Positions 22,087-39,841 of a stretch of DNA of 64,000 nt are shown in pieces. The translations under genes were made by a program, and so were the position numbers. The notes beneath the pieces were generated by a model. It made no database searches. It was not told the DNA's origin and saw only the letters and a list, made by a program, of their open reading frames with translations. The stretch is from positions 248,001 through 312,000 of the forward strand of contig NZ_WJPP01000004.1 of NCBI RefSeq assembly GCF_009649225.1, read 5' to 3'. Positions within the stretch are counted from its first letter, which is position 1, and each line of letters begins with the position of its first letter. Source of the stretch: Spiribacter salilacus. Its GTDB lineage: Bacteria > Pseudomonadota > Gammaproteobacteria > Nitrococcales > Nitrococcaceae.

Positions 22087-22506
22087 ATGAATGCCGATGC
22101 TCTAATCTCTAAAGAAATTCTTTTGCAGATTCTAGAAGAAAGCCCATTTGAGCATATGGATAGTAGTGTGCACGTAATGGACAGTAGTGTTGGCAAAGGC
22201 CATGAGCTTGCTGGTGTATCCATTTACGGTAATGAACGAGGCTGGACGGCGCAGATTAATTGGCGCGCGGTTATTGAAGCCGATGAAATTACGCTGCGCG
22301 TGGGCGATGGCGATACGGGTGAGCGGGCGTATGAGCTGCGTGATGAGCACCGTTCAAGGATTGCTGTTGGTAACGCAGATGGTGCCGTTGCCAGCCCAGA
22401 TGAAATTTCCGCCGTGGTTGCCAAATCGCGGCTTGCGCGCAGTTGGGAGTCTGATGTGCTTGGTGTGCTGCGGGATACGCGTGAGCGACAGGCAACCATT
22501 CATTAA
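22087..22506 (+). CDS. Uncharacterised small acidic protein
   Basis: I do not recognise this 139-residue protein. It is acidic, has no signal peptide or membrane segment, and contains a central region (HELAGVSIYGNERGWTAQIN) that looks like alternating beta strands, then GDTGERAYELRDEHRS and a helical C-terminus. A very good ribosome binding site, AAAGGAGG, stands 7 bases before ATG 22087, so the start is clear and the gene is well translated. It is followed by an overlapping glycosylase-like gene (26 bases) and then the creatininase gene, so all three probably form one transcript leading into the putative pteridine cluster. Confidence 0.7.
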   Translation: MNADALISKEILLQILEESPFEHMDSSVHVMDSSVGKGHELAGVSIYGNERGWTAQINWRAVIEADEITLRVGDGDTGERAYELRDEHRSRIAVGNADGAVASPDEISAVVAKSRLARSWESDVLGVLRDTRERQATIH

Positions 22507-23131
22507 CGCGGGGCTTCGAGCCCTCGCTCAAAACCTCGAAGGTGTTGACCGCAGTGCCTATGCGGCTGCTGGCCGAGACCCCTGCGAGCCGATTTTTGGC
22601 CTTGGGCCAAAGCATGCAAAGATTGCCTTTTTTGGCCGTGACCCTGGGCGTGAAGAAGTTAACGTCGGCCTGCCCTTTGTTGGCGCGGGTGGCCGGCAGA
22701 TTCGCAATGTATTGCATGCGCGTGATCCTGACATGGCGGGAGATGCCTATTTTTGGGCAAACACAGTGCCTTATAAGCCAATCGGTAATAAGGCCTGGTC
22801 AATGTCGGTGAAGCGCCAGTTTCAGCCGTTAGTGGCTGAGGTTTTGCTTACGCAGTGGCATGGAGACAACGTCATTACGTTAGGACGTGAGGCATTTTTT
22901 TGGTTTGCCCTTGCTCAAAGCAAAGCCGTGGGTCAGGCAATTAAAACCCATTGGGAATCTGCGGATCGGTTTACTAAAAGCTTGCCGATTGAATACCAAG
23001 GGCCAACAGCAGTTGCAGGGCGAACATTAACACTGCACCCCTTGCCGCATCCCTCACCACTAAACGCAGTCTGGTTTAAGCGTTTTCCCAATTTGCTGGC
23101 AGACCGTTTAGATGCTTTGGAGCGCCGCTAA
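22481..23131 (+). CDS. Uracil-DNA glycosylase superfamily protein
   Basis: About 216 residues. The segment IAFFGRDPGREEVNVGLPFVGAGGRQI corresponds to UDG motif 1 of families 4/5 (GEDPGxxE...GxPFVGxAG). LTLHPLPHPSPLN is motif 2 (HPSP). There is no clear set of four Fe-S cysteines of the family 4 enzymes: only one Cys (DPCEPIFGLG) precedes motif 1. The enzyme may remove uracil or another modified base, or act on free nucleobases. The GTG at 22481 overlaps the end of the previous gene by 26 bases, and the open frame to the left lacks family similarity. Its stop overlaps the creatininase start (TAATG), which makes a link with the downstream pathway possible. Confidence 0.78.
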   Translation: MSDRQPFINAGLRALAQNLEGVDRSAYAAAGRDPCEPIFGLGPKHAKIAFFGRDPGREEVNVGLPFVGAGGRQIRNVLHARDPDMAGDAYFWANTVPYKPIGNKAWSMSVKRQFQPLVAEVLLTQWHGDNVITLGREAFFWFALAQSKAVGQAIKTHWESADRFTKSLPIEYQGPTAVAGRTLTLHPLPHPSPLNAVWFKRFPNLLADRLDALERR

Positions 23132-23877
23132 TGGCAGTACATCACTGGAAAACGCTAGCAGCGCCTGATATTCCGGCGTTAATGGCTAAAAACCCGGTCG
23201 CCATTCTGCCAATGGGTGCCTTCGAGCAGCATGGCCCGCACCTTCCATTTGCCACCGATAGTTTGTTGGCTGAATCATTGGTTGACTATGCGCTTGAGCA
23301 ACTATCAGGCCCGATTTCAGTGATTCGGCTACCGCTCCTGCCGCTTGGCGATAGCATTGAGCATCATGCATTTGCCGGTACGCTATCGTTAGAGCCCAAT
23401 ACGCTGCAGGCTGTAGCGTATGAATGCGGCGCAAGCTTTGCAGCGGCCGGCGGGCGGCGGTTGGTTTTTTTTAGTGGGCATGGTGGCAATAAAGCCGGCT
23501 TAGATATTGCCGCTACGCGTTTGCGTCGGGATTTTGGGCTGCAGGTGGCCAGCGTTTGTTACTTTGACTGGCCAATACCAGAAAGCCTTTTGCCTGCGGC
23601 TGTGCGGCAGTACGATTTGCACGGCGGTGCAATAGAAACCGCTCTAATGCGCTATTTTATGCCTGATTTGGTGCGTGATGCGGCCGTGTCTGATTGGCAG
23701 CCCAACGCCACCGCCGCGTTGCTCAATGGCCAATTAGCTTGGATGGCAGAAGATCTTTGCGCGGCGGGCGTTGCAGGCAACGCCACACTGGGCACAAGCG
23801 AGCTCGGTGAGCAGCTCGCTGCGCGTTATGCCATGGCTTTAAATCAGCTCATCATCGAGATGGCTGATCTTCAATAA
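23131..23877 (+). CDS. Creatininase-family amidohydrolase (ArfB/MftE-like)
   Basis: Metal-dependent hydrolase of 248 residues. The family motifs are complete: MGAFEQHGPHLPFATD (Glu, two His and Asp metal ligands), FFSGHGGNKAGL (HGGN) and DLHGGAIETALMRYF (HxGxxETS-type). Known members are creatininase, the archaeal riboflavin-pathway deformylase ArfB, and the mycofactocin protein MftE. Adjacent genes are a GTP cyclohydrolase II and a RibD-C-type reductase, which makes an ArfB-like formamide hydrolase role on a pyrimidine intermediate the best guess. The last 26 bases overlap the convergent cyclohydrolase gene. Inference from neighbourhood only: the substrate is not shown by sequence. Confidence 0.85.
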   Translation: MAVHHWKTLAAPDIPALMAKNPVAILPMGAFEQHGPHLPFATDSLLAESLVDYALEQLSGPISVIRLPLLPLGDSIEHHAFAGTLSLEPNTLQAVAYECGASFAAAGGRRLVFFSGHGGNKAGLDIAATRLRRDFGLQVASVCYFDWPIPESLLPAAVRQYDLHGGAIETALMRYFMPDLVRDAAVSDWQPNATAALLNGQLAWMAEDLCAAGVAGNATLGTSELGEQLAARYAMALNQLIIEMADLQ

Positions 23878-24961
23878 GAATCTCGTCAAGCAAATGGCCA
23901 GCACGATCAGACTTGGCATTCAGGTAACGCGCGTTGTGGTGGTTAAGCTCACCAAGTACCGCTTCACGGCCTTTTACAGAAATACCGGCTGCCTCAAGGG
24001 CGTTAATTTTGGCGGGGTTATTGGTAAATAGCGTCAATTGCTTAATACCTAAATCCTGCAAGATCGCGGCTGTGCCCTCGTATTGGCGTTCATCATCGCC
24101 AAAGCCTAATTCTGCGTCTGCATCAATCGTGTCATATCCACTATCTTGCAGCGCATAGGCCCGTAATTTGTTGGCAAGACCAATACCCCGGCCTTCTTGA
24201 TCGAGATAGAGCAAAACCCCTCCGCCCGCAGCGGCAATGCCTGCCACACCGCGGCGCAGTTGCTCGCCGCAGTCACAGCGCAGCGACCCAAATAAATCAC
24301 CGGTCAGGCAGGCAGAATGCAGTCTTACCGCTGGTGCGTCTGGCCATTCATTAGGATTACCAACAATAACCGCAACATGCTCACCCAGGCCATCGGGTTC
24401 GCGATACAGCACAAATCGGGCCTCTTCCGATTCGCTGAGCGGAACGCGAGCCTCGCTAATACGCTCGGGCTTTTCGGTGGTCTGGGCGTTAATCTGCTGC
24501 AGCAACGGTCGCGGAACGGAGAGGAGCTCTCCGTCGATTACTTGCTGTGCCACGATAGCGGTGTATTGGGGCGCAATGCTGGCGGAAATTAAACAAGGCA
24601 GTAAACGCGCGCGCCGCGCCAGCGCAATAGCTGCGGTATCCATTAAATGCAAATGAGCTATCGGGGCGATTTGGTTTTTAGCAGTGCCTGCGCAACATAG
24701 CCCGGCAAGTGCTTCAATGTTCGGTGTATCCGCTAAAGATAAGGCAACGGGGCCATCCCCTTCCGTTGCATAGCCTAGAGAGCGAGCGCGGTGCGCAGTT
24801 ACCAAAAGGCGTAGCGGCTTTTCGGTAAATGCCTTGAGCATTTCTAGCCGGTTTGCGTTGAGTGTCTCTACAGCCAGAATTAAACTGGGGTCTCGTTCAT
24901 CACTTAAAAAAAGTGGCTCGCCACTTCTAAGCTCTGCCAGCGCTCGTCGGATGCGTTGCAT
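23852..24961 (-). CDS. ribA: GTP cyclohydrolase II with degenerate N-terminal RibB-like domain
   Basis: 369 residues. The C-terminal half (about 175-369) is a complete GTP cyclohydrolase II: zinc cysteines C218, C229 and C231 in HSACLTGDLFGSLRCDCG, the catalytic YLDQEGRGIGL, FGDDERQYE and the final FTNNPAKINALEAAG. The first 170 residues are alignable by eye with the dihydroxybutanone-phosphate synthase RibB (ALAELRSGEPLFLSDERD at the start), but the DDEDRENEGD acid motif and the GHTEA region of RibB are missing, so that half should be inactive. Start ATG has GGAG 8 bases upstream. 35 bases separate it from the divergent reductase gene, too short for an FMN riboswitch. Probably a paralogue serving the cluster rather than normal riboflavin synthesis. 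Confidence 0.9.
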   Translation of the reverse strand: MQRIRRALAELRSGEPLFLSDERDPSLILAVETLNANRLEMLKAFTEKPLRLLVTAHRARSLGYATEGDGPVALSLADTPNIEALAGLCCAGTAKNQIAPIAHLHLMDTAAIALARRARLLPCLISASIAPQYTAIVAQQVIDGELLSVPRPLLQQINAQTTEKPERISEARVPLSESEEARFVLYREPDGLGEHVAVIVGNPNEWPDAPAVRLHSACLTGDLFGSLRCDCGEQLRRGVAGIAAAGGGVLLYLDQEGRGIGLANKLRAYALQDSGYDTIDADAELGFGDDERQYEGTAAILQDLGIKQLTLFTNNPAKINALEAAGISVKGREAVLGELNHHNARYLNAKSDRAGHLLDEILIEDQPSR

Positions 24962-24996
24962 TATGACTCCTTATTTTTGTTCAAAAGGAATAGACC

Positions 24997-25710
24997 ATGG
25001 AGCAGGGTAACAATTCCCCGTACGACGTATTACGGGATCATTACGCCAATAGGCCACAGGTGATTGCGCAATTAGGGCAGAGTTTAGATGGCCGTATTGC
25101 AACCGTCACTGGCCATTCCCATTTTGTCACAAGCCAAGCTGATCGGGTTCACCTGCATCAACTACGTGAAATCTGTGATGCGGTACTCATTGGCCCAGGC
25201 ACTCTGATTAAAGATAACCCCCAATTAACGGTGCGGCACGTTGCTGGGGCAAATCCGCTACGTGTGATTATGGCGCCCCGAGCGCCATTTGACACACACT
25301 ATGCCGTTTTTAATGATCATCAGGCGCCTACCTTATTGTTGCTGCCCCCCGATCAGACAGTATCGCTGCCTGCGCATATTGAATGCCTGTATCCGCAGCC
25401 CTATACCCCACAGGGTATCTTGGCGGCATTAGCAAAGCGGGGCGTGCAACAATTGCTGGTTGAAGGCGGAGCGAGAACGGTGTCTGCCTGGTTTGCTGCT
25501 GACTTATTGGATTGGCTTTATTTAACCATTGCACCGGTCGTGATTGGCGCGGGGCCAACGGGGCTTACGCTGCCGCCCATTAGCCACATGGATCAGGCCA
25601 AGCGTTTGCCGGTTAAACGCTTTTCGCTGGGTGAAGATATGTTGTTCAGACTGGACTGCCGCGCCGCCAAATCACCACAAGACCCGGCAGAGCCGTCAGT
25701 AGAGCCATAA
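24997..25710 (+). CDS. RibD C-terminal-domain reductase (diaminopyrimidinone reductase-like)
   Basis: Dihydrofolate-reductase-fold protein of 237 residues equivalent to the reductase half of RibD or archaeal ArfC, without the deaminase half. Diagnostic segments are AQLGQSLDGRIATVTG, CDAVLIGPGTLIKDNPQLT, LLVEGGARTVSAWF and IAPVVIGAGPTGL. These bind NADPH and the ribosylamino-pyrimidine phosphate. The known activity is reduction of the ribosyl side chain to ribityl. AAAAGGAA precedes the ATG. The gene is divergent from the cyclohydrolase gene. Its last 65 bases overlap the convergent membrane-protein gene, a long overlap for two real genes. Function within this cluster is inferred. Confidence 0.9.
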   Translation: MEQGNNSPYDVLRDHYANRPQVIAQLGQSLDGRIATVTGHSHFVTSQADRVHLHQLREICDAVLIGPGTLIKDNPQLTVRHVAGANPLRVIMAPRAPFDTHYAVFNDHQAPTLLLLPPDQTVSLPAHIECLYPQPYTPQGILAALAKRGVQQLLVEGGARTVSAWFAADLLDWLYLTIAPVVIGAGPTGLTLPPISHMDQAKRLPVKRFSLGEDMLFRLDCRAAKSPQDPAEPSVEP

Positions 25711-26512
25711 GGCCGTAAAAAAAGGCAGCAGCCACGCCGTCTGCAGAAGATAGCGTTGCCCACGCCCAAAGCGCTGCGGCCGCGCCTTCACGCAGCCCCC
25801 ATCCGGCAACGGTAATCGGAATTAACATGGTAAATAACACCAGCGGAATGAGTGGCAGCCAGTCTGCTAGCGAACTGGCGGCCTGTGGGTTGATGGCCAT
25901 CACACAGCAGGCAAAAGCCGCCACACAGGCAATGGCTGCCAGCAATGAAGCGGTCAGTTGAACTAGCAGCACCGGTGGGTTTAAAAGCGCGATACGCAAC
26001 GCTTGTAACCAATTGGCCACCTGAGCCTGATGCCTTAACAGCCAGAATACCAATAGGAGCGCAGCGGTAATGAGTAAGCTGATAGCCAGCGTCGTACCCA
26101 GTGAGCCGATCGGTAGCGATATCAGTGCCAGTAAAATCATGGCAATTTGCCCGGATAATCGTTCAATCACCACTGCCTGAAACGCTGGGCTGCGGCGCGT
26201 TAAGGTATTCGAATGACGCCATGCCCGGTGTGCATCGCCTAAAACGCCGCCCGGCAGTACTTGGTTAATCAGGATGGCCAAATAGTACTCACGAACGGCA
26301 GTGGTGGCGGTTAACGCCATTCCCAGTTGTGCTGCGGTATAGCGCCAGCGCCAAGCTGAAATCAGAATTTGCAGGGTTAATAGTGCGCCGGCTGCCACTA
26401 GCCACTCGGCTTTTGCGTTTTGTAGACGCTGCAATAGCGTTACGTGATCGAGCTGCCAGACGATCAGGCCGATAAGCAGCAAGCTGATTAAAAAACGCAG
26501 TAAACGAGGCAT
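25646..26512 (-). CDS. YbhN / lysylphosphatidylglycerol synthase TM-domain protein (flippase-like)
   Basis: Membrane protein of 288 residues with about eight hydrophobic segments. It belongs to the LPG_synthase_TM/UPF0104 (YbhN) fold: QILISAWRWRYTAAQLGM near the first segments, YLAILINQVLPGGVLGDAHRAWRH as the conserved loop, and a GWGLREGAAAALWAWA motif close to the C-terminus. Members include the flippase part of MprF and uncharacterised proteins next to glycosyltransferases. It is the last gene of a minus-strand operon (dehydrogenase, pterin-synthase fold, glycosyltransferase, methyltransferase, this gene), so it may move a lipid-linked or glycosylated product across the membrane. It has no lysyltransferase domain. 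Start ATG overlaps the methyltransferase stop. Confidence 0.85.
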   Translation of the reverse strand: MPRLLRFLISLLLIGLIVWQLDHVTLLQRLQNAKAEWLVAAGALLTLQILISAWRWRYTAAQLGMALTATTAVREYYLAILINQVLPGGVLGDAHRAWRHSNTLTRRSPAFQAVVIERLSGQIAMILLALISLPIGSLGTTLAISLLITAALLLVFWLLRHQAQVANWLQALRIALLNPPVLLVQLTASLLAAIACVAAFACCVMAINPQAASSLADWLPLIPLVLFTMLIPITVAGWGLREGAAAALWAWATLSSADGVAAAFFYGLMALLTALPGLVVIWRRGSPV

Positions 26513-27303
26513 CAGGCAGGCAGCGCTAATAGATCTTGATGGCCAACACGCAGCTGTTTGTGAGCCATCTGTTTAAGGTGATCCTGTTGCCATTGAGCAA
26601 ACATTGCCGCGTTCTCGGGCTGTACCGCTGAGGCGGCCTGTACCCAGCCGCTAATCAGTAGTTGTTGTAATTCAGTTTCATCAGCGCCCAGTTGCCATGG
26701 ACTGTCAGCAACATAAACGCGATAACCGTGCTCACGAAATCGCTTAGCACAGTATTGGCTTGCATCAGGCCCAAGGGCCGGGCCAAAGCCCTTGTCACTG
26801 CGCTGATGGATATTAACCGCAGTCTCCAGCGCTTGGTCAGTCACTGTCGCGGGCACACGACTAATATGCCCATCGTAGCTAAGCGCAAATAGGGCAGGAA
26901 TGCGTTGGGCAACCACGTGATCAATAAGTGCATCAAGCCACGGAGCACTGACTAAATCGAGCAGGGCAGAGGCTGTAATTAAATCGGTGTTTTTCAGAAG
27001 TAATCGTTCGTTTCCGCTGATGAGGGCCTTTAAATCCCCCACCACACGCGTGACTTCGTCTTCTTTTTCGGTGTGGGCGAGTAGGGCTGAGTCATGATCA
27101 TAAAGCGTCCAATGCTGAGGCAGTGCCAGCTTTGGGGAAAGGTAGCGATAATTGCTGCCCCTGCCTGCGCCTAAATCCAGCACACGCAGCTGTGTCTGCC
27201 CGGCCACAGCGGCATTGAGTGGGGCGATTAAGCGACTCGCCCGAGCGCGATGATCGGCGGGCTCACGCAGAGTCAGCCAATCGGCCGCAAAATGTTCGCT
27301 CAT
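26512..27303 (-). CDS. Class I SAM-dependent methyltransferase
   Basis: Cytoplasmic methyltransferase of 263 residues. SAM motif I is LRVLDLGAGRGSNYRYL at about residues 39-55, and the acidic motif II is LYDHD about 18 residues later. ITASALLDLVSAPWLDAL is the post-motif region. The N-terminus ADWLTLREPADHRARASRL and the later ALGPDASQYCAKRFREHGY are typical of a subgroup I associate with pterin-synthase and glycosyltransferase neighbours, though I cannot verify that here. It lies 7 bases downstream of the glycosyltransferase gene and is joined at its stop to the membrane-protein gene. The methyl acceptor is unknown; the neighbourhood suggests a pteridine or its sugar. Confidence 0.85.
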   Translation of the reverse strand: MSEHFAADWLTLREPADHRARASRLIAPLNAAVAGQTQLRVLDLGAGRGSNYRYLSPKLALPQHWTLYDHDSALLAHTEKEDEVTRVVGDLKALISGNERLLLKNTDLITASALLDLVSAPWLDALIDHVVAQRIPALFALSYDGHISRVPATVTDQALETAVNIHQRSDKGFGPALGPDASQYCAKRFREHGYRVYVADSPWQLGADETELQQLLISGWVQAASAVQPENAAMFAQWQQDHLKQMAHKQLRVGHQDLLALPA

Positions 27304-27310
27304 TCGGTGC

Positions 27311-28378
27311 TCATTCCTTTGTTAGTGCGTCACTAAATGCCTGTCCGCGCACAGACCATGGGGTTAGGTGTTGGCGGGCGTCTCGTGCGCCATCGCGCAA
27401 GCGTTGCTGGAGTGAGGCATCGGTCAAAAATGATTGGATTGCCACTTTTAGTGCAGCGGCATCATTGGGATTTACCGCAATTCCTGCATGGGGCGGCAGC
27501 GTATCGACGAGTGCTCCGGCCGTTGTCGTAATAATGGGTAGGCCCCGTGCAATGGCCTCGGTAACAACCATGCCATAGCCTTCATAGCGTGATGGCAAAA
27601 TCAGGCAGTCAGCCGTTGCATAGGCTTGGGTTAGCGCGGCTGCCTCTAGTGCGCCAGCTAGGGTAACTCGATGAGCAAGATTGGCGTGCTCAATCTGCTG
27701 GCTAACGTTTTGGGCGAATGCGGGCGCGAGCTCGGTAGAGCCTATAAGCTGGCAGTGCCAAGCGGGCGCATCATCGCTAATCTGGCTCAGTGCCTCAACT
27801 AATACATCCTGCCCCTTTCGTGGTGTGATACTGCCAACGCAAATCAGCTCAATTTGATCAGCATGGCCACCAGTGCTTAATGGCGCAGGCGCGCAACCTG
27901 GCTCTACCGTTATCACGGTGTCTTGGTAAAGATCTAAAGCGGCCAGCTGTAAACGCGTATGTTCGCTGGTGGCAATAACTTTTTGGCAATAGCTAAGGGC
28001 TTGTTTTTCCCGCTGTTGGAGTGCCTCTGCCGCTTGAGTTGATAGCCCACTTTCCAGGCAAAGCGGGTGGTGGACTAGGGCGATCAGTTCCAAGCGCTGA
28101 GCATGGGGCGCGAAAGACTCAGGTAACCCCCCGAGCACTAGGCCATCAATAATCACTGAGCTATTTGACTCAATTGCATTGAGCGCGGCTTCTACGGCTT
28201 GGGCCGCTATTTGATCTGGGCCTGGAAACTGCCCGGTAAGCTCTGTTACCGCTACTGAATGCCCCTGTGCGATGAGTGCATTCACTATTTCTCGATCGTA
28301 ACGACTGCCGCCCGTCGGCCGATTGATGGAGCCAGGCACTAAAAAATGCAATGCCGTTGGCCTACAGCGTTTGCTCAT
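27311..28378 (-). CDS. Family 4 glycosyltransferase
   Basis: GT-B-fold sugar transferase of about 355 residues. N-terminal LHFLVPGSINRPTGGSRYDREIV shows the GT4 glycine-rich loop. The C-terminal half contains VGSITPRKGQDVLVEAL and LPSRYEGYGMVVTEAIARGLPIITT, with the E-x7-E motif that binds the nucleotide sugar. Three in-frame ATGs are possible: 28405, 28396 and 28378. I chose 28378 because it gives a usual N-terminus and a short 17-base overlap with the upstream gene; the first would overlap 44 bases. The acceptor is likely the product of the neighbouring pterin-type enzymes, but that is inference. Confidence 0.87.
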   Translation of the reverse strand: MSKRCRPTALHFLVPGSINRPTGGSRYDREIVNALIAQGHSVAVTELTGQFPGPDQIAAQAVEAALNAIESNSSVIIDGLVLGGLPESFAPHAQRLELIALVHHPLCLESGLSTQAAEALQQREKQALSYCQKVIATSEHTRLQLAALDLYQDTVITVEPGCAPAPLSTGGHADQIELICVGSITPRKGQDVLVEALSQISDDAPAWHCQLIGSTELAPAFAQNVSQQIEHANLAHRVTLAGALEAAALTQAYATADCLILPSRYEGYGMVVTEAIARGLPIITTTAGALVDTLPPHAGIAVNPNDAAALKVAIQSFLTDASLQQRLRDGARDARQHLTPWSVRGQAFSDALTKE

Positions 28379-28760
28379 AAGCTGCAGAGGCAACATGCGA
28401 CTCATGCAAGGTCACTTTTAACCCAGTGATTTTTCGAGCCCCTTCGCCCAACTGGCCTTGATGAATGGCCTCAATCAGCGCCTGGGCGATATGGCCTGCC
28501 AAATATTCAGTGGTGGTATTGATACCCGAGAACTCGGGTAAGTCATCGAGATTTTTTAGGTTATATCGGGCCAATAGGCTCTTTAGCACATCGGTGGCTC
28601 TGGCAATATCAACCACCACGCCATCGGCGTCGAGTTGCTCTCGATAGAAGCTGGCATCAGTGGTGTATGTGGCGCCATGAAGCGCTTGTGCTGGGCCAAA
28701 AGTATTGCCCTGAAAGCTATGAGCAATCATAAAATGATCACGAACGGTTACGGTGTACAT
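28362..28760 (-). CDS. 6-pyruvoyltetrahydropterin synthase/QueD-fold protein with altered active site
   Basis: 132-residue T-fold protein. The N-terminal DHFMIAHSFQG and FGPAQALHGATY segments align with the QueD/PTPS zinc region, NTTTEYLA is the pterin-recognition strand, and LHESHVASAAYE at the C-terminus gives the substrate-anchoring Glu. Compared with E. coli QueD, two zinc histidines are present (H14, H28), but the third is Ala (A30), and the catalytic Cys four residues before H28 is Ala (A24). The family fold is clear, while the reaction is probably not standard. It starts at the dehydrogenase stop (one-base overlap) and runs into the glycosyltransferase gene. Likely a pteridine-acting enzyme of an uncharacterised subgroup. 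Confidence 0.86.
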   Translation of the reverse strand: MYTVTVRDHFMIAHSFQGNTFGPAQALHGATYTTDASFYREQLDADGVVVDIARATDVLKSLLARYNLKNLDDLPEFSGINTTTEYLAGHIAQALIEAIHQGQLGEGARKITGLKVTLHESHVASAAYEQTL

Positions 28761-29743
28761 TAAGTAGTCTCCGGGTAAATGATCCGATGGCAGAGGCCCT
28801 GCCCTGATGCGATTTTAGGCATGGTTTGGGGTAGTTCTGCAAAGGCAGATTCGCTATCAATTAGCGCGTCCCAAGCCGTGTTTTCTGCCAGCAAGCTCAG
28901 CGCTAGGTTAAGCCGGCCATCGGTAGTCCATTGTGAAGCCCTATGCGGCGGCACCTGCCCCACTTGGCTGGAGCGCAGTGTTAGACGACGCGCGTGAAAA
29001 TCTTGTCCTAAAGGTAATGAGACCGGGGTCTTGCCAAACCAGCTCATCTCAAGAATTACGCCGTTGGTGGCAACAAGAGTGAGTGCATGGTTAAGCCCGG
29101 CCTGTGTTGCGCTGGTATGCACCACGCGATCGGCTTGCGTCCATGCCGTCTGTGGCGTTGCAAATTCAACGCCCAGCGCAGCGGCTGTTGTTGCACGCGC
29201 AGGGTTGATGTCAATCAGTTGCGCTTGGCAGCCTGGCATTGCTTGTATCAGGCTTGCCACTAAGCAACCTACAACACCGGCGCCAATAACAGCAATACGC
29301 TCGCCCATTTGCGGTTGTAAATCCCAGATCGCGTTAATTGCGGTTTCAACATTTGCCGCTAATATGCCGCGCTCGGCGGGTAAGTCTTCGGGTAAGCGAT
29401 GGGCGGCTTGCTGTGGCACGACATAACGATCTTGATGGGGGAAGAGGCAAAACACCTGCGCACCCACCCAATCCGATGGCCCCACCTCCACCACACCCAC
29501 GTTGGCATAGCCGTATTTAACGGGGGCAGGGAAATGGCCTTCCTGAAACGGCGCACGCATGCGTTGATATTCGCTTTCTGGAACTAAGCCGTTCCAAACA
29601 AGTGCTTCGGTGCCGCGGCTAATTCCGCTATAAAGTGTGCGAACTTGCAGCATGTCAGGTGATGGTGCAGCACAATGCCCCTGGTGAATTGAACCAGATT
29701 GGGGTGAATCGATCCAAAATGCATGGGTTGTGATGGCTGGCAA
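28760..29743 (-). CDS. Medium-chain dehydrogenase/reductase, zinc-less, BchC-like
   Basis: NAD(P)-binding oxidoreductase of about 327 residues. The N-terminal GroES-like domain has LYSGISRGTEALVW in place of the Cys-His zinc site, so it probably lacks catalytic zinc, a trait shared with BchC-type dehydrogenases. The Rossmann motif is IAVIGAGVVGCLVASL at about residue 148, with the ribose-binding Asp in LIDINPAR. The start appears to be TTG at 29743, with AGGACA 7-8 bases upstream; no ATG is available nearby. It heads the five-gene minus-strand operon and is divergent (46 bases) from the CDP-alcohol transferase gene. It may oxidise or reduce a side chain or sugar of the cluster's product. Confidence 0.85.
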   Translation of the reverse strand: MPAITTHAFWIDSPQSGSIHQGHCAAPSPDMLQVRTLYSGISRGTEALVWNGLVPESEYQRMRAPFQEGHFPAPVKYGYANVGVVEVGPSDWVGAQVFCLFPHQDRYVVPQQAAHRLPEDLPAERGILAANVETAINAIWDLQPQMGERIAVIGAGVVGCLVASLIQAMPGCQAQLIDINPARATTAAALGVEFATPQTAWTQADRVVHTSATQAGLNHALTLVATNGVILEMSWFGKTPVSLPLGQDFHARRLTLRSSQVGQVPPHRASQWTTDGRLNLALSLLAENTAWDALIDSESAFAELPQTMPKIASGQGLCHRIIYPETT

Positions 29744-29789
29744 AGCTGTGTCCTACTGGCAAAGAGTCAAAAACTAAGGAGAGCGTAGC

Positions 29790-30491
29790 ATGCGTGCGGC
29801 GGGCCGCTTTGATCGCTGGCTGGGAATTTTGCCAGATTTGCTATTCATGGGCATTGTTGTGATGGCAGCGGGGGCATGGCTCGCGCAAGCGGGCAGTGAG
29901 GGCTCGATTCGTGTGCTGCCATTGACGCTGCTTGGTTGGGTGGTGTTTGTGGCAGTCATTGGCGGTACAAGTGAAGTGCGTGCTTTTACGCCGGCCGATC
30001 GAGTCACGCTGGGTCGGGTGATGCTGCTTATTTTGCTAAGTGCCTTGCTGTTGGGCGCAAGCCCTTCACAGGTGGATAGTGGGTTGGTTTTTGCACTGGC
30101 GATGGTCGTTGCGCTATTGGATGCGCTGGATGGGGCAATTGCACGCCGACTAAAGTGTGAACGGCCTTTTGGCGCCCGCTTTGATATGGAAGTGGATGCG
30201 GCCATGTTAATGATCTTTAGTTTATGGTTGTTTGCTTTAGATCGCGCCGGTATCTGGGTTCTGCTGATTGGGTTGTGGCGCTATGTGTTTGTCCTGATCA
30301 GTCAATTTCGGCCTGCGTTGCGGGCGCCGTTGCCGTTTTCTCAGCGGCGCCGGGTAATTTGTGGCATTCAAGGAGTCGGTTTAGCGCTTTGTTTGGCCCC
30401 GGGTATGCCAGCAACCGCATCAGCGCCCGTTGCGGCCGGTCTGCTTTTGCTGCTCAGTTATTCATTTATGGTTGATATGTTGAGGAGATAA
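29790..30491 (+). CDS. CDP-alcohol phosphatidyltransferase-family membrane enzyme
   Basis: Integral membrane protein of 233 residues with about six hydrophobic segments. The signature D-x2-D-G-x2-A-R-x8-G-x3-D-x3-D is complete (D111, D114, G115, A118, R119, G128, D132, D136 in LLDALDGAIARR...FGARFDMEVD). Family members join a CDP-activated group to an alcohol to make phospholipids or phosphodiester-linked compounds. The rest of the protein does not identify PgsA, PssA or a cardiolipin synthase. AAGGAGA precedes the ATG. It sits directly divergent from the pterin-type operon and may attach the product to lipid. That link is inference; it might be an ordinary lipid gene. Confidence 0.87.
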   Translation: MRAAGRFDRWLGILPDLLFMGIVVMAAGAWLAQAGSEGSIRVLPLTLLGWVVFVAVIGGTSEVRAFTPADRVTLGRVMLLILLSALLLGASPSQVDSGLVFALAMVVALLDALDGAIARRLKCERPFGARFDMEVDAAMLMIFSLWLFALDRAGIWVLLIGLWRYVFVLISQFRPALRAPLPFSQRRRVICGIQGVGLALCLAPGMPATASAPVAAGLLLLLSYSFMVDMLRR

Positions 30492-30493
30492 CC

Positions 30494-31078
30494 ATGGTAA
30501 AGATCACATCATTCATGGCGCTGGCTGGCGTTTTAGTAACGAGCGTTGCGGTTGCTGAGCCAGAACGGTTTGTATTGGATGAAAGCCATCTGAGCATTGG
30601 TTTTATTGTGGGTCATGCGCAATATGCGGGTGTGTTAGGGCAGTTTACCGAGGCCGAAGGTGAATTTGTGTATGACGAAACAAATCAGGTATTACATTCA
30701 GGGCGCGTAGTGGTTGATGCCGCCAGCGTGTTTAGTGGGCATAAACGGCGTGATGAACATGTACGCAATGCCGATTTTCTACATGTTGATGAACACCCGC
30801 AGATTGTTTTTGAAGCCACCGAGTTTCGACCGGCCTCAGCAAACACCGGCGAGTTGGTAGGGGAGCTCACGATGCTGGGCGTCACTCAGCCCTTAACCCT
30901 GGATGTCGTGATTAATCAGCGTGCCCCTCACCCAATTGGTGGTGCCGATACCTTAGGTGTTTCGGCCCGCGGTGCACTGCTGAGGAGCGAATTCGGCATG
31001 GATTATGCGCTTGAGGGCGAGCTGGTGGGTGACGAGGTAGAGCTTATTATCGAATTGGAAGCGATTCACGATGACTGA
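30494..31078 (+). CDS. YceI-family periplasmic protein
   Basis: Secreted protein of 194 residues. Signal peptide in the first 21 residues, cut near SVAVA-EPE. The rest is the YceI lipocalin-like beta barrel: FVLDESHLSIGFIVGHAQYAG at its start, HKRRDEHVRNADFLHVDEHPQIVFEATEF as the conserved middle motif, and MLGVTQPLTLDVVIN. YceI proteins bind long polyisoprenoids or lipids. A strong GAGGAGA binding site overlaps the end of the CDP-alcohol transferase gene (2-base gap), so the two are translationally linked. In the context of the cluster, binding of an isoprenoid or amphipathic product is possible. The final bases overlap the patatin gene by 8. Confidence 0.9.
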   Translation: MVKITSFMALAGVLVTSVAVAEPERFVLDESHLSIGFIVGHAQYAGVLGQFTEAEGEFVYDETNQVLHSGRVVVDAASVFSGHKRRDEHVRNADFLHVDEHPQIVFEATEFRPASANTGELVGELTMLGVTQPLTLDVVINQRAPHPIGGADTLGVSARGALLRSEFGMDYALEGELVGDEVELIIELEAIHDD

Positions 31079-34498: not shown

Positions 34499-37400
34499 TT
34501 AACGGTTTTGAAATTCTGCCAAGAGCCGGCCCGTTTGTGAGGCCGCTTTGCGCATGACTTGCTCAGGTGTGCCTTCAGCAACAATCTTGCCACCGGCATC
34601 GCCGCCCTCGGGGCCCAAATCAATGAGCCAATCGGCCTCGGCAATTAAATCGAGGTTGTGTTCGATAATGACCACACTATGGCCAGCATCCACCAGTCGA
34701 TGCAGGATACGAATTAGACGTTCTACATCCGCAATATGCAAGCCGACGGTGGGTTCATCCAAAATATAAAGCGTTTTGGGTTGTTTGCCGCGGCTGCCGG
34801 CGGGCCGGGCCTTGGCAAGCTCGCTGACCAGTTTGATGCGCTGTGCCTCACCGCCCGATAAGGTGGGGCTGGGCTGGCCGAGTGTCAGATAGCCTAAGCC
34901 GGTATCACGTAGTAGCCCAAGGGCATGATGGAGCTTGGGTTGGGCGGCAAAAAAATCGACTGCCGTTTCAATATCCATGTTGAGCACATCACCAATGGAA
35001 TGATCGCGCCAAGTAACCGCCAGCGTTTCTGCACTAAACCGCTGGCCATGGCAGACATCGCAGGGCAGGGTAACATCGGGCAGAAAACTCATTTCGATGC
35101 GTTTAACACCTTGGCCTTCGCACTCTGGGCATCGCCCCTCACGAGTGTTAAACGAAAATCGACTCGGGCCGTAGCCGCGAATGCGCGCTTCTTCGGTTTC
35201 GGCAAACAAGCGGCGAATATCATCATAAAGCCCAACATACGTGGCCGGGCAGGAGCGTGGTGTTTTGCCAATGGGCGTTTGGTCTACTTCAAGCACGCGA
35301 TCAATTGGCTGCGCTTTGGCCGTTTCACGATCTGCCAGTCGACGTTTAAGCTCGCTATGCAGTACCTCGCGAATGAGCGTGCTTTTGCCAGATCCAGAGA
35401 CACCGCTGACCACGGTCAGGCACTCCAGAGGAAGGCGAAGATTTACGTCTTTAAGGTTGTTGGCTTGCGCCTTGTTAATCACAATTGCCTCGGCATTGGC
35501 TGCATCTCGGCGTTTGCCAAGGCTTGGGTGGGCAAGCGGCTGCGCCAGCGCTCGCCCGGTTACCGAGTGGGGGTTAGCCAGTAGCTCATCAAGCGTACCC
35601 TCGGCAACCACCCGGCCGCCCCTGATGCCGGCGCCTGGGCCCAAGTCGATGACATGCGCGGCACGCCGAATCGTGTCTTCGTCATGCTCCACCACTAGCA
35701 GCGTGTTGCCCTTTTGCTCCAGTTTCTCGAGCGTATCGAGTAATAAACGATTATCCCGTGCGTGCAGACCTATCGTGGGTTCATCCAAAATGTAGCAGAC
35801 CCCCTGTAGGTTAGAGCCCAGTTGAGCTGCCAGCCGAATTCGCTGCGCTTCGCCGCCGGATAGCGTGGGCGCGGCGCGATCAAGGGTGAGATAGCCTAGA
35901 CCCACGTCTTGCAGAAAACCCAAACGGTTTTGCAGCTCGGGCAAGATGTCTCTGGCAATCGCGGCATCACGACCCTCTAAGGTGAGGTCAGCAAATAAGG
36001 CCTTGGCAGCGCTCACGGAAAGCGCACCATATTCTGCAATGCCGCGGCCAATAAACCGGACTGCTAGGGCCTCGGGCCGCAGACGATGTCCATTGCATAG
36101 CGGGCAGGTTTCTGGCTCCTCGGGGGGTTCAACTTGAGTGCGGCCCGTGCCCAAACAACCGGGGCACCAACCATGCGCGGTGTTGTAGGAAAAAAGCCGC
36201 GGATCCAGCGGGTTAAAGCTGCGTGCACAACCTGGGCAGGCGCGCTCGGTGGAGTACAGTGTTGAACTGCCGTTTGCCGTGGACACACGGACTTGCCCCT
36301 TGCCATAGGCGAGGGCTTGGTCAAGCGCGGCCAGCAGGCCAGCTTCATCCGCTGGGTTTGGGGTAAGAGTGATGACCGGCAGGTCAATATCATGCTCACG
36401 AAAGCGATCAAGCCGTGGCCACTGCTCAGTGGGCTGATCTTGGCCATCTACGCGGAGTTTTTCAAAGCCTTTGTTGGCGGCCCATTGTGCTAAATCGGTG
36501 TAATAGCCTTTGCGGGCAATAACCAGCGGTGCCAATAGCTCGATGGGCTGCCCCCGGTGTGTATTGAGTAAATGCTCGGCAATCGCCTCGCGGCTGCGCT
36601 CGGTAATGGGTAAATCACAATCAGGGCAATACTGGGTGCCGAGCTTAACAAACAGCAAACGTAAAAAGTGATGAAGCTCAGTGAGCGTGCCGACCGTGCT
36701 CTTATGGCCGCCACGACTGGTGCGCTGCTCAATGGCCACGGTAGGGGGTATGCCGGTAACCGCATCAACATCGGGTTTGGCGGCCGGTTGCACAAACTGC
36801 CGCGCATACGCATTAAGTGATTCTAAATACCGGCGCTGCCCTTCATTAAACACAATATCGAAAGCCACGGTGCTTTTGCCTGAGCCCGATAACCCGGTGA
36901 TCACGCTCATGCGGTTGCGCGGGATGCGCAGATCAATGCCGCGCAGATTATGCTCACGCGCATTGTGAATCATAATGGCCTGATCGGGGTTGGCAGCTTG
37001 CCGGGCCGGAGGGGGTTCGGCCACTTGCAATGCTGCACTTGGCTCGAGGGCGGCCACATGGCGGCGCAAGGCAGCCCCCGTGGCGCTGTGCGCTGCGGCA
37101 TCCATGAGTGCATCGGGTGAGCCCTGAGCGATAACCTGCCCGCCGGCATCGCCGCCTTCCGGGCCAAGGTCAATTAACCAGTCTGCGGCATGCATTACAT
37201 CGAGGTTGTGCTCAATCACAATAATCGAATGCCCGGCATCAAGCAGCCTTTCCAGCGCGGTCAGTAATACGCGGATATCATCAAAATGCAGCCCGGTGGT
37301 CGGCTCATCAAATAAAAATAAAGTGTGACCCGCTTTTTTGCGCTTTGCCTTGGCCAAATGCCCGGCAAGTTTAAGGCGCTGGGCCTCACCGCCTGATAGT

Positions 37401-39841
37401 GTAGGCACGGGCTGACCGAGGCGCAGGTACCCCAAACCCACCGCTTCTAGTGGCTCGAGTCCACGCAGGATGTCGGGCTTGTTGGCAAAAAACACCTTCG
37501 CTTGGGCAACCGTCATCTCTAAACAATCTGCTATTGAGGCAGGCAGGGCATCGCAGCCGGGCGCAGGCGGCAATCGAACATCTAATACGGCATCACGGTA
37601 ACGCCGCCCATCGCAGTCAACGCAGCGTAAATACACATCGGAGAGGAACTGCATTTCCACATGCTCAAAGCCATTACCCCCACAAGTGGGGCAGCGCCCA
37701 TTGCCGCTATTAAAGCTAAAGGTGCTGGCGGTATAGCCGCGCTCAATGGCTAGTGGCTCACGCGCAAAGGCCTTGCGGAGTGGGTCGAGCACACCCACAT
37801 GACTGGCGGGGTTAGATCGGGTGGTGCGCCCAATGGCGCTTTGATCTACCAGGATTACCTCATCAATCGACTCATGCCCGGTAAAGCCAGCAAAGGCACC
37901 GGGTGGGTCTACCGCTTCGCCCAAATGCTTGCGCAGGCCACGATAAAGAATCGATTCAAGCAGTGTGGATTTGCCAGACCCGGAGACACCCGTTAAGCAG
38001 ACTAAACGCTGCAGCGGCAGCGCCACGTCAATATTTTGTAGGTTATGTTCGGTAGCGCCGAGTACGTTAAGCCACTGTTCTGGCGCAGGCCGGCGGGTGC
38101 GATGCTCAGCTTGAACGCGGGTTTCGCCACGCAGGTAAGCGCCGGTCAGGCTTTTTTGATCGGCCAGTAGTTCGGGGAGGGTGCCGTTAAAAACAATGTT
38201 TCCGCCGCGCTCTCCCGGGCCAGGGCCAATGTCTAAAACCCGATCGGCGGCACGGATTATGTCGGGATCATGCTCCACCACTAACAGCGTGTTGCCGGCA
38301 TCGCGCAGCCGCTGCATGACGCCGGTAATTCGGTCGATATCCCGCGGATGTAAGCCAATGCTGGGCTCATCTAATACAAACAGCGTGTTGACCAGCGAGG
38401 TACCTAACGCCGTGGTGAGGTTAATGCGTTGCACCTCGCCACCCGAGAGGGTGCGAGATTGCCGATCAAGGGTCAGGTAACCCACGCCAACGGCCTCTAG
38501 AAAACCAAGCCGGTCGCGAATGGCCTCTAAGACCAGGGGCACCGCTTCATCAAGCGGCGGGGGTAGGGTGAGATGATTAAAAAAATCGGTGGCTCGGCTG
38601 AGCGGCAGGGTCATAATTTCGTGCAGATTGAGGGCCTGATCGCCCTCGCCAAGTCGCCAAAGTAGCGCTTCTGGTTTTAGCCGTGCGCCTTGGCAATCAG
38701 GGCAGAGGTCGTAGCTGCGGTACTTCGATAGCAGCACGCGCACATGCATTTTATAGCTTTTTGCCTCAAGCCAGTCGAAAAAACCCTTGATGCCATACCA
38801 TTTGCCGCGGCCTTTGCCTTCGCCGTTGAGCACCCACTCCCGGTCTGCTTCGGGCAGGTCCTCCCACGGGATATCCATGGCGATGTTTTTTGCGGCGGCA
38901 TGCCGGGCCAGATCTTTTTGACAATCTGCCGAGCGGCCTGACTGCCACGGCCGAATGGCACCGCCGGCCAGTGTTTTGCGCGGATCAGGGATGACCAACC
39001 CATAGTCGATGCCCATGACGCGGCCGAACCCGCGGCAGGTGTCGCAGGCGCCCATGGGTGAGTTAAAAGAAAATAAGCTTGGCAGTGGGTCTTGATAATG
39101 ACGATTACAATCGGGGCAGTGTAAATCGCTAGAGAAACGATGCTCGGCGGTGGCTTCACGTTCGTCGTTGAGTGTTTCGATAACAACCTGCCCGCGGCCA
39201 TGTCGCAGTGCGGCTTCAACGGCCTCAACCAGACGATCGCGGCGGCTTTCCTGCGCTTTGATGCGATCTTGAGTGACCCGCAGTTGGCCGGCTTTTAAGG
39301 TGGCGATGCGGGTATAGCCTTGGGCCTGAAGTAATTGACGAATTTCTGTTTCGTCATACGGCGCGGGCACGGGGATGTCAAAGTTGATGCTTAGTCTTTC
39401 GCCAGCGCAGCGGGTAAGCATGCGCTCGGCAATGCCATCTGGCGTGTCGCGACTAACCTGACGGCCGCAGCCGCCGCAATAGAGCCGTGCCGCCCGGGCA
39501 AAGAGCAGCTTAAGATGATCATTGAGTTCGGTCATCGTGCCAACGGTGGAGCGCGAGGTACGGACTGGGTTGGTTTGATCAATGGCAATGGCCGGTGGAA
39601 TACCTTCGACCTTATCTGTGGCAGGCCGATCCATTCGGTCTAAAAACTGCCGAGCATAGGGCGAGAAGGTTTCTACATAGCGGCGTTGACCCTCGGCATA
39701 AATGGTATCGAAGGCCAGCGAAGACTTGCCGGAGCCGGAAACACCGGTCACCACAATCAGCTCACCAATCGGTAGATCAAGGTTAAGGTTGCGTAGGTTG
39801 TTTTGACGCGCCCCACGAATGCGAATGCATCCTGTATTCAT
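34499..39841 (-). CDS. uvrA: Double-length UvrA (tandem UvrA fusion, four ABC ATPase domains)
   Basis: One uninterrupted protein of 1780 residues, nearly twice the usual 940. Copy 1 covers about 1-930 and copy 2 about 945-1780. Each has two Walker A loops (GVSGSGKSS and GVSGSGKST, then GLSGSGKST and GVSGSGKST), matching LSGGE signatures and DEP Walker B boxes, and zinc-finger cysteine sets (CPxC pairs). UvrA normally dimerises to find bulky lesions for UvrB; here both halves of such a dimer may be covalently joined. It starts at ATG 39841, 4 bases after the tmcA stop, with no LexA box directly upstream. Such long UvrA proteins are known in some bacteria as a separate class. A normal uvrA may exist elsewhere in this genome. 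Confidence 0.93.
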   Translation of the reverse strand: MNTGCIRIRGARQNNLRNLNLDLPIGELIVVTGVSGSGKSSLAFDTIYAEGQRRYVETFSPYARQFLDRMDRPATDKVEGIPPAIAIDQTNPVRTSRSTVGTMTELNDHLKLLFARAARLYCGGCGRQVSRDTPDGIAERMLTRCAGERLSINFDIPVPAPYDETEIRQLLQAQGYTRIATLKAGQLRVTQDRIKAQESRRDRLVEAVEAALRHGRGQVVIETLNDEREATAEHRFSSDLHCPDCNRHYQDPLPSLFSFNSPMGACDTCRGFGRVMGIDYGLVIPDPRKTLAGGAIRPWQSGRSADCQKDLARHAAAKNIAMDIPWEDLPEADREWVLNGEGKGRGKWYGIKGFFDWLEAKSYKMHVRVLLSKYRSYDLCPDCQGARLKPEALLWRLGEGDQALNLHEIMTLPLSRATDFFNHLTLPPPLDEAVPLVLEAIRDRLGFLEAVGVGYLTLDRQSRTLSGGEVQRINLTTALGTSLVNTLFVLDEPSIGLHPRDIDRITGVMQRLRDAGNTLLVVEHDPDIIRAADRVLDIGPGPGERGGNIVFNGTLPELLADQKSLTGAYLRGETRVQAEHRTRRPAPEQWLNVLGATEHNLQNIDVALPLQRLVCLTGVSGSGKSTLLESILYRGLRKHLGEAVDPPGAFAGFTGHESIDEVILVDQSAIGRTTRSNPASHVGVLDPLRKAFAREPLAIERGYTASTFSFNSGNGRCPTCGGNGFEHVEMQFLSDVYLRCVDCDGRRYRDAVLDVRLPPAPGCDALPASIADCLEMTVAQAKVFFANKPDILRGLEPLEAVGLGYLRLGQPVPTLSGGEAQRLKLAGHLAKAKRKKAGHTLFLFDEPTTGLHFDDIRVLLTALERLLDAGHSIIVIEHNLDVMHAADWLIDLGPEGGDAGGQVIAQGSPDALMDAAAHSATGAALRRHVAALEPSAALQVAEPPPARQAANPDQAIMIHNAREHNLRGIDLRIPRNRMSVITGLSGSGKSTVAFDIVFNEGQRRYLESLNAYARQFVQPAAKPDVDAVTGIPPTVAIEQRTSRGGHKSTVGTLTELHHFLRLLFVKLGTQYCPDCDLPITERSREAIAEHLLNTHRGQPIELLAPLVIARKGYYTDLAQWAANKGFEKLRVDGQDQPTEQWPRLDRFREHDIDLPVITLTPNPADEAGLLAALDQALAYGKGQVRVSTANGSSTLYSTERACPGCARSFNPLDPRLFSYNTAHGWCPGCLGTGRTQVEPPEEPETCPLCNGHRLRPEALAVRFIGRGIAEYGALSVSAAKALFADLTLEGRDAAIARDILPELQNRLGFLQDVGLGYLTLDRAAPTLSGGEAQRIRLAAQLGSNLQGVCYILDEPTIGLHARDNRLLLDTLEKLEQKGNTLLVVEHDEDTIRRAAHVIDLGPGAGIRGGRVVAEGTLDELLANPHSVTGRALAQPLAHPSLGKRRDAANAEAIVINKAQANNLKDVNLRLPLECLTVVSGVSGSGKSTLIREVLHSELKRRLADRETAKAQPIDRVLEVDQTPIGKTPRSCPATYVGLYDDIRRLFAETEEARIRGYGPSRFSFNTREGRCPECEGQGVKRIEMSFLPDVTLPCDVCHGQRFSAETLAVTWRDHSIGDVLNMDIETAVDFFAAQPKLHHALGLLRDTGLGYLTLGQPSPTLSGGEAQRIKLVSELAKARPAGSRGKQPKTLYILDEPTVGLHIADVERLIRILHRLVDAGHSVVIIEHNLDLIAEADWLIDLGPEGGDAGGKIVAEGTPEQVMRKAASQTGRLLAEFQNR

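Follow-up and report, generated by a model that had tools for sequence, protein, structure and literature searches.

The closest described counterpart of the locus examined here is the gene neighbourhood of SCO6650 in Streptomyces coelicolor. SCO6650 is a PTPS-fold protein (PDB accession no. 3D7J) which, in the paper on its structure, is said to contain no zinc and to show no PTPS activity. Its neighbour SCO6655 is a GTP cyclohydrolase II (GCHII) with methionine at a switch position; in work of 2006 attributed to Spoonamore it was reportedly assayed and makes the formylated pyrimidine FAPy, with Met120 as the switch. Glycosylated pteridines, a possible end product of the present cluster, are formed by pteridine glycosyltransferases such as PGT of Chlorobium tepidum, but these enzymes act on pterins derived from GTP cyclohydrolase I (GCH I). 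Within the creatininase family, BrbF is a proven FAPy formamidase that serves riboflavin synthesis, its GTP-opening partner not being known (PMC9478397).

The window analysed here comprises 64,000 nucleotides of Spiribacter salilacus (contig NZ_WJPP01000004.1, positions 248,001 to 312,000). It carries what we read, with a probability of about 0.6, as a biosynthetic cluster of two modules for a GTP-derived metabolite. The features are as follows (coordinates are those of the window):

22187-23131: uracil-DNA-glycosylase-superfamily ORF, outside the conserved set (PF03167)
23131..23877, + strand: creatininase-family hydrolase, proposed FAPy formamidase (PF02633, 191 bits)
23852..24961, - strand: GCHII with a RibB-like N-terminal half (PF00925, 182 bits, residues 167-332)
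24997..25710, + strand: RibD C-terminal-type reductase (RibD-C, gene ribDC) without a deaminase domain (PF01872, 125 bits)
25646..26512, - strand: YbhN/AglD-like membrane protein (LPG synthase TM region), possible flippase (PF03706, 112 bits)
26512..27303, - strand: class I SAM-dependent methyltransferase (MT), a family of its own (PF13649, 20.8 bits, and structure model)
27311..28405, - strand: GT4 glycosyltransferase (GT) (PF00534, Glycos_transf_1, 105 bits)
28362..28760, - strand: PTPS-fold protein, SCO6650 ortholog (PF01242, 81 bits)
28760..29743, - strand: medium-chain dehydrogenase (DH), BchC-like (NCBIfam bchC, 47.6 bits)
29790..30491, + strand: CDP-alcohol phosphotransferase, divergent from the DH operon (PF01066, CDP-OH_P_transf, 49 bits)
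30494..31078, + strand: YceI-like protein, optional partner (PF04264, 129 bits)

Profile searches confirmed at 23131-31078 all ten proteins named in a first-pass annotation. That annotation had drawn the cluster from position 22087, a stretch which does hold the ten genes and also covers the ORF at the head of the list, which it had not named; this ORF was found near one relative out of 115, at L038, a locus of the same lineage. Promoter- and terminator-like sites in the locus occurred in counts below the shuffled means.

Relatives were searched for with the DH as marker gene, giving 115 loci (15 non-own matches of the first search, 80 kept of 590 confirmed, and 20 from the third), of which 100 are fully flanked, 65 with ribA and 35 without. 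These loci are not independent, many being from Streptomyces and Halomonadaceae and two (L045 and L181) having an identical DH, so a Fisher p value calculated from them cannot be read as a probability. The gene set was found in Actinomycetota and Pseudomonadota as well as on single contigs from MAGs that bear the labels Gemmatimonadota and Acidobacteria; the order DH-PTPS-GT-MT(-YbhN) is mostly preserved. Chance can by no means account for a gene set that reappears in several phyla with its order largely intact, and the recurrence that the first-pass annotation had suspected in other proteobacteria is borne out on a wide scale. The glycosyltransferase is present near 92 and the methyltransferase near 91 of the 100 fully flanked loci; the YceI gene accompanies the cluster only now and then (14 of 115 loci). 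When 7539 ORFs from 95 relatives and the window were clustered, the 45 largest families included the nine core ones; on visual inspection most of the others resemble opposite-strand shadow ORFs. Some nine genes, whose order varies little among many unrelated bacteria, probably turn GTP into a decorated, vitamin-like molecule. Two further families were observed: ORF family 23 at 24 loci labelled Streptomyces, and an FkbM-type methyltransferase (PF05050 in L031, L073 and L188) with relatives in 17 of the 115 loci, which may be an optional tailoring gene.

The PTPS-fold protein of the window is orthologous to SCO6650 over its full length (phmmer E 9.7e-49), like it without a full zinc site, and part of this orphan cluster is therefore already on record, without a function. 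The pathway had been called undescribed. No paper on the product or pathway was recognised in the mainly open-access literature searched; the word needs qualifying for the components, since the SCO6650 structure is in the PDB and SCO6655 was reportedly assayed in 2006. Streptomyces loci (S. coelicolor itself not among them) carry CDP-alcohol phosphotransferase, DH, PTPS-fold, GT, MT, YbhN, creatininase and GCHII genes. They share with the window the order (CDP-alcohol) DH-PTPS-GT-MT-YbhN, with the creatininase and GCHII genes adjoining and the order of ribA and creatininase swapped. The window differs from the Streptomyces type in a GCHII with the tyrosine kept, an alanine beside a zinc cysteine and a RibB-like N-terminal half, and in having RibD-C kept and YceI added.

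The CDP-alcohol phosphotransferase contains D-x2-DG-x2-AR-x8-G-x3-D-x3-D, the signature of its family, and each of the residues concerned (D111, D114, G115, A118, R119, G128, D132 and D136) is found in 85 of 85 alignment rows. Its gene lies near 81, and that of the YbhN-type protein near 74, of the 100 fully flanked loci, usually in the same place beside the DH and methyltransferase genes. A membrane-bound product, as proposed at first, is a possibility; near 13 of 14 loci from the other classes of the phylum both genes are missing, and membrane anchoring is therefore not universal. A soluble glycosylated pteridine or pyrimidine, secreted or intracellular, with the CDP-alcohol and YbhN genes serving other ends or only some lineages, would account for these 13 loci, which have DH-PTPS-GT-MT with or without ribDC and ribA (L169 has its GT apart and no MT, and L177 has no GT), and for the sister-type loci L033 and L034, from which the two genes are also absent. 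The frequency and regular placement of the genes and the fully conserved CDP-alcohol signature speak against it, as does the alphaproteobacterial locus L116, which has a CDP-alcohol gene; on balance we consider a soluble product unlikely, if by some way the most serious alternative.

The PTPS-fold protein shares with QueD/PTPS (COG0720) the family PF01242 and a conserved ligand-binding glutamate, and differs in having no CxxxHGH, no Asp-His pair and no third zinc histidine. In an alignment with four canonical QueD proteins, the catalytic cysteine is replaced by Ala24, the third zinc histidine by Ala30 and Asp-His by Asn-Leu. Ala30 replaces histidine in 84 of the 85 rows of the family, and H14, H28 and E120 are conserved in all 85. 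None of the PTPS-I, -II and -III motifs, as given in PMC5041015, is matched. With the cysteine, the Asp-His pair and one zinc histidine lost, the protein is no QueD/PTPS, and the PTPS or QueD chemistry once expected of it is not supported. In a sister cluster type the PTPS-fold protein keeps three zinc histidines. A conventional route, in which the protein would use dihydroneopterin triphosphate from GCH I, as happens when biopterin, queuosine or folate is made, while the other enzymes would decorate the pterin, draws on the PF01242 score of 81 bits, the conserved glutamate and the presence of a GCH I gene in the genome. It is improbable in view of the replaced residues, of a second, far better canonical-type PTPS-family match in several cluster genomes, and of the reported lack of zinc and PTPS activity in SCO6650.

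The cluster is not the riboflavin operon, which is located elsewhere. RibD, riboflavin synthase, RibBA, lumazine synthase and a separate RibA are all encoded outside the cluster, and a profile search of the cluster genes found neither riboflavin synthase nor lumazine synthase. The first-pass annotation had left room for these being the only ribA and RibD-type reductase of the genome, simply serving riboflavin synthesis, and this is not the case. The N-terminal half of the window GCHII aligns to DHBP synthase (RibB), a comparison of profiles with the RibBA of this genome giving 95.5%, but it has no match to PF00926 (the genome's own RibBA scores 281 bits), and in the alignment to that RibBA the acidic DDEDRENEGDL-like loop is absent, unlike in a bifunctional RibBA. 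GCHII and RibD-C do come from riboflavin-pathway families, as a second or back-up supply of riboflavin or another flavin would require; given the rib genes elsewhere, the two missing synthases, the degenerate RibB-like half and a DH-PTPS-GT-MT core not needed for flavin synthesis, such a role is very improbable. Least credible is that light-dependent proteins (photolyase/cryptochrome, rhodopsin) use the product as their antenna or cofactor: the genome has a rhodopsin and the window an FeS-type, DPRP-family photolyase-related gene (9360-10916), but that gene lies near none of the 115 loci and only 4 of the 16 genomes that were cluster-positive in the first search are among the photolyase-family positives (44 of 252, a set that may include only some of the 16), and a photolyase/cryptochrome antenna was rejected, with neither a neighbourhood nor a distribution link seen.

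The window GCHII has the canonical features of its family (three zinc cysteines and the catalytic core), Cys218, Cys229 and Cys231 being kept in 64 of 64 alignment rows. Its Tyr269 aligns to E. coli Tyr105, the residue reported to be needed for deformylation and the position of the FAPy switch; the protein has tyrosine where SCO6655 reportedly has methionine. In all 48 actinobacterial cluster GCHIIs examined this position is M, H, L or I (Met in those of Streptomyces), and a creatininase gene lies near 46 of them (one a remnant); at the 47th it is found immediately beyond the boundary of the locus, and the locus of the 48th is cut off where its contig ends. Near the three sister-type GCHIIs that retain Glu217 and Tyr269 there is no creatininase gene, and in the two of their genomes that were searched as a whole (G249 and G182) no PF02633 match was found. 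GCHIIs with Tyr269 and Ala217 are without a nearby creatininase at 7 of 21 loci, and six of those seven genomes have a PF02633 gene elsewhere. As the window protein keeps the tyrosine, a need for a deformylase is unexplained by that switch. Ala217 (Glu to Ala beside the zinc cysteine) was considered as a second FAPy marker and rejected, since its presence in an off-cluster GCHII (L155) makes it unspecific; L157, also bearing Ala217, is the split-off GCHII of genome G223. Ten of 28 cluster-bearing genomes gave no match to GCHII that contains the zinc motif, and none of these ten has archaeal GCH III (PF05165).

The creatininase-family protein is the only PF02633 match in the genome, and its residues E32, H34, D43, H117 and E169, which presumably serve the metal site, are invariant in 59 of 59 rows. 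The best solved relative of RibD-C is 2,5-diamino-6-ribosylamino-pyrimidinone phosphate reductase (6p8c, E 5.9e-27). A creatininase gene is present in 55 of the 65 fully flanked loci with ribA, as against 6 of the 35 without; these six count against the pathway proposed below. The ribDC gene lies near only 53 of the 100 fully flanked loci, so the reductase step is either dispensable or carried out by the housekeeping RibD. In G223 the ribDC-ribA-creatininase block is on a different contig from DH-PTPS-GT-MT. There are thus two separable modules, of which ribDC-ribA-creatininase probably makes a ring-opened pyrimidine. The co-occurrence of ribA and creatininase, the G223 triad and the BrbF precedent (PMC9478397) lend plausibility to the original suggestion that GCHII, creatininase-family hydrolase and RibD-C are consecutive steps. 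By analogy, the cluster enzyme may catalyse the reaction of the FAPy formamidases BrbF and ArfB, BrbF being of the creatininase family; in contrast to BrbF, it is encoded in a cluster that does not serve riboflavin synthesis and that has a GCHII of its own.

For the second module, bchC is the best NCBIfam match of the DH, with a score (47.6 bits) far under the cut-off of 291, and the usual zinc ligands were not recognised in its sequence. The Pfam match of the methyltransferase is weak (PF13649, 20.8 bits; cut-off 27), but its AlphaFold model (pLDDT 94.9; Foldseek best hit 3mgg, E 2.3e-11) has a confident class I SAM-methyltransferase fold. The nearest structures of DH, GT and MT indicated no substrate.

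In the favoured reading of a two-module cluster, GCHII would open GTP to FAPy, or straight to APy, its deformylated form; the formyl group would be stripped by the creatininase-family enzyme, and the stand-alone RibD-C would convert ribose to ribitol, giving 2,5-diamino-6-ribitylamino-4(3H)-pyrimidinone 5'-phosphate; the 2-amino group would be retained because no deaminase domain is present. Gene content, conservation, the joint occurrence of the first-module genes and the residue losses are observations, whereas these three reactions are inferred from family chemistry. The PTPS-fold protein could hold a pterin-like ring through its conserved glutamate, without the residues for the PTPS reaction. 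More speculatively, it and the BchC-like DH would process the pyrimidine or close it into a bicycle, for which an 8-ribityl-pterin is one candidate; methylation and glycosylation might follow. In the majority of gammaproteobacterial and actinobacterial clusters the CDP-alcohol phosphotransferase and YbhN-type protein would probably link the product to a phospholipid and move it across the membrane. In its fullest form the proposal is a phospholipid-anchored, methylated, glycosylated ribityl-pterin (or ribityl-diaminopyrimidine), made from archaeal-style FAPy and ribityl-APy with a zinc-stripped PTPS-fold protein acting on a ring-opened or ribityl substrate, and forming a new compound class across phyla; taken whole, we regard it as doubtful and advance it tentatively.

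New here are the split into modules, the pairing of tyrosine-replaced actinobacterial GCHIIs with creatininase, the residue losses of the PTPS-fold protein, the sister cluster with three zinc histidines, and the absence of CDP-alcohol and YbhN genes at most other-class loci. Streptomyces and halomonads, in which the cluster is common, are easily grown, so it should be feasible to obtain the product. A creatininase-family enzyme paired with a switch-altered GCHII would show that archaeal two-step GTP opening is widespread in bacteria outside riboflavin synthesis. If the product is lipid-linked, it would represent a novel type of membrane molecule, and one anchored to a phospholipid might carry redox equivalents in the membrane or act as a UV-absorbing lipid.

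The cluster (23131-31078) lies in a genome of 2.24 Mb that is essentially complete (window position G000:C13:248001-312000). Its five central genes, assigned by family searches, form a single minus-strand run in which adjacent genes overlap or are at most 7 bases apart:

29790-31078, plus strand: CDP-alcohol phosphotransferase and YceI genes, transcribed away from the dehydrogenase gene
29743-28760, minus strand: BchC-like dehydrogenase (DH)
28760-28362, minus strand: PTPS-like protein
28405-27311, minus strand: GT4 glycosyltransferase
27303-26512, minus strand: methyltransferase
26512-25646, minus strand: YbhN-like protein
24997-25710, plus strand: stand-alone RibD-C reductase (ribDC), divergent to ribA
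24961-23852, minus strand: GTP cyclohydrolase II (GCHII; ribA), divergent to ribDC
23131-23877, plus strand: creatininase-family hydrolase, overlapping the 3' end of ribA

The closest named relative over the whole region, among the matches listed, is an uncultured Ectothiorhodospiraceae contig (L038), which has the cluster and its flanks in common with the window. The neighbouring ORF 22187-23131 carries a uracil-DNA-glycosylase-superfamily domain confined to its C-terminal half (from residue 137), and its true start is probably further downstream. A UvrA-like protein of 1780 residues (34499-39841; PF17760, PF17755) resembles, by eye, a tandem pair of UvrA units. A photolyase/cryptochrome-related gene of the DPRP family (FeS-type) lies about 12 kb from the cluster (9360-10916); a link between the two was looked for and none was found.

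The DH sequence found relatives in 16 genomes out of a sample of 274 from the class, and a DH alignment in 27 out of a sample of 398 from the phylum; both counts include the genome of the window. Among named genomes, at least 596 stretches matched DH patterns, 590 of them encoding relatives; the best 80 of these at least 590 were analysed. They include Streptomyces, Actinomadura, Amycolatopsis, Nocardiopsis, Halomonas, Kushneria and an alphaproteobacterial MAG, as well as two MAG contigs, L073 with the label Gemmatimonadota and L089 with the label Acidobacteria; labels of MAGs may be in error. Window queries found PTPS in 77 of these best 80, CDP-alcohol in 75, glycosyltransferase in 74, methyltransferase in 72, YbhN in 68, creatininase and ribA in 58 each and ribDC in 29. 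Profile searches of the 100 fully flanked loci among all 115 gave PTPS 97, glycosyltransferase 92, methyltransferase 91, CDP-alcohol 81, YbhN 74, ribA 65, creatininase 61 and ribDC 53. The most frequent gene order, (CDP-alcohol) DH, PTPS, glycosyltransferase, methyltransferase, YbhN, (creatininase), ribA, was seen in 29 of 102 loci; 13 of these loci share the window's arrangement, which includes ribDC, ribA and creatininase, and four of the 13 also have YceI. In the tree of DH sequences, whose bootstrap is unsettled, a branch (100/100) separates the 13 Actinomycetota rows from the rest, and L038 is the partner of the window (98/97).

The cluster is not the riboflavin operon, as rib genes are present elsewhere: RibD, riboflavin synthase, RibBA and lumazine synthase are encoded consecutively on contig C11, and a canonical GCHII, with a GCH I gene nearby, on C14 (L035:9825-10421). 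A PF00925 search of the whole genome returned three genes. The GCHII half of RibBA (L036:9753-10877) is without the zinc Cys motif, and the RibA on C14 is canonical. The N-terminal half of the cluster GCHII can be aligned with RibB, lacks the acidic loop and gave no DHBP-synthase match in the family search. In this genome, the creatininase and PTPS families are each matched by the cluster gene alone.

The genes appear to fall into two modules. Among the 100 fully flanked loci, ribA and creatininase were both present in 55, ribA alone in 10, creatininase alone in six and neither in 29. Genome G223 has a DH-PTPS-glycosyltransferase-methyltransferase locus (L023) without ribDC, ribA and creatininase, and these three are grouped with an FkbM-type methyltransferase on a different contig (L188). 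This co-occurrence and split suggest that ribDC, ribA and creatininase would make a precursor which the remaining enzymes would consume; at loci without them, housekeeping enzymes may supply it. That ribDC is near just 53 of the 100 loci counts against the pathway reading.

The cluster creatininase would act second, as deformylase of the formylated pyrimidine made from GTP (FAPy). This assignment draws mainly on BrbF of Sinorhizobium and Brucella, a member of the creatininase family that was shown to deformylate FAPy (PMC9478397). In the cluster proteins, the residues presumed to form the metal site are unchanged in 59/59 rows.

Tyr269 of the window GCHII aligns with the switch position, Tyr105 of E. 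coli RibA. Work by Spoonamore in 2006 reportedly found that S. coelicolor SCO6655, with Met at this position, makes FAPy, and that its Tyr variant makes the deformylated form, APy. PMC3509567 cites Spoonamore 2006 for changed GCHII activities in Streptomyces. Across 72 GCHII rows, window included, whose groups represent few independent lineages, the residue is M (38), H (7), L (2) or I (1) in 48, all from loci titled as Actinomycetota genera. By profile, 46 of these 48 have a creatininase near the DH, one of them remnant-like (L108). Of the other two, L114 has one just past the end of the retrieved locus, on a contig of equal length; L088 is cut off where its contig ends, and no PF02633 match was found in its genome. 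The apparent remnant, L108:14201-14461, occupies the usual position in a Nocardiopsis cluster, and the contig of the same number (G658:C3) carries a longer creatininase match at a distance of about 22 kb. Rows with Tyr269 and Ala217 number 21: 14, all gammaproteobacterial, have a creatininase and seven do not, six of these seven genomes carrying a PF02633 gene elsewhere. None was found near the three Glu217/Tyr269 rows, all of a distant sister type (L032 being a short contig), and genome-wide searches of two of them, G249 and G182, gave none either. The pattern in switch-altered enzymes fits an obligate formamidase; for Tyr-type clusters, the window's included, the switch gives no explanation of the creatininase, and the GCHIIs of these clusters may release FAPy too.

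Zinc-motif GCHII is missing from some cluster-bearing genomes. In nine of 28 scanned (G266, G155, G138, G010, G068, G251, G142, G522 and G651, each at least 96% complete), the single PF00925 match lacks the motif (L158, L159, L160, L163, L164, L165, L194, L195 and L196, respectively), and cluster-bearing G255 gave no PF00925 match. GCH III was found in 0/10 of these genomes; four (G155, G266, G522, G651) have a creatininase-family gene. The missing GCHII and GCH III count against the pathway reading.

The sole PDB relative of the PTPS-like protein (phmmer, E threshold 0.01) is 3D7J, SCO6650, named uncharacterized. In an alignment of the PTPS-like protein with four QueD sequences of canonical type, taken from genomes that carry the cluster, it retains the Glu and two zinc His out of three; Ala24 stands in place of the Cys and Ala30 in place of the third His, and the Asp-His pair is gone. 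Ala24 and Glu120 occur in 85/85 rows and Ala30 in 84/85. The sister type (L031, L033, L034) retains three zinc His, with Glu replacing the catalytic Cys. DH and ribDC are present at its loci, ribDC as a fusion with ribA in L033 and L034. A glycosyltransferase occurs in L031 and L034, a CDP-alcohol gene in L031 and a methyltransferase relative in L033. The DH rows of this type, counting L032, form their own clade (100/100, bootstrap unsettled). Together these residue losses and the three-His sister type suggest that PTPS chemistry was left behind in steps, while the protein would still act on a related substrate.

The methyltransferase is confidently modelled as a class I enzyme, its nearest structural neighbours being uninformative, and the best solved relatives of the GT4 protein include phosphatidylinositol- and inositol-type glycosyltransferases, a family-level likeness only. 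An FkbM-type methyltransferase, possibly an optional tailoring gene, lies near 17/115 loci (L188:10615-11391, also L031, L073, L057, L168 and others); none was recognised beside the window cluster. The CDP-alcohol phosphotransferase signature is complete. Of the 14 loci from the phylum's other classes (L167-L180), 13 have neither this gene nor YbhN nearby, and L170 has both; L116, a named alphaproteobacterial MAG locus, has the CDP-alcohol gene without YbhN. A lipid-linked product is therefore at most lineage-dependent, unless the missing membrane genes lie elsewhere in those genomes.

The first-pass annotation proposed a pathway to a GTP-derived, reduced, methylated, glycosylated and perhaps membrane-anchored pteridine or pyrimidine. 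Its outline holds, and its more specific parts go too far: the pterin assignment is weakened by the lost PTPS residues and the membrane assignment by the distribution of the membrane genes. Parts of the cluster are already on record from Streptomyces without an assigned function, and the whole is a real, widespread and functionally orphan biosynthetic cluster.
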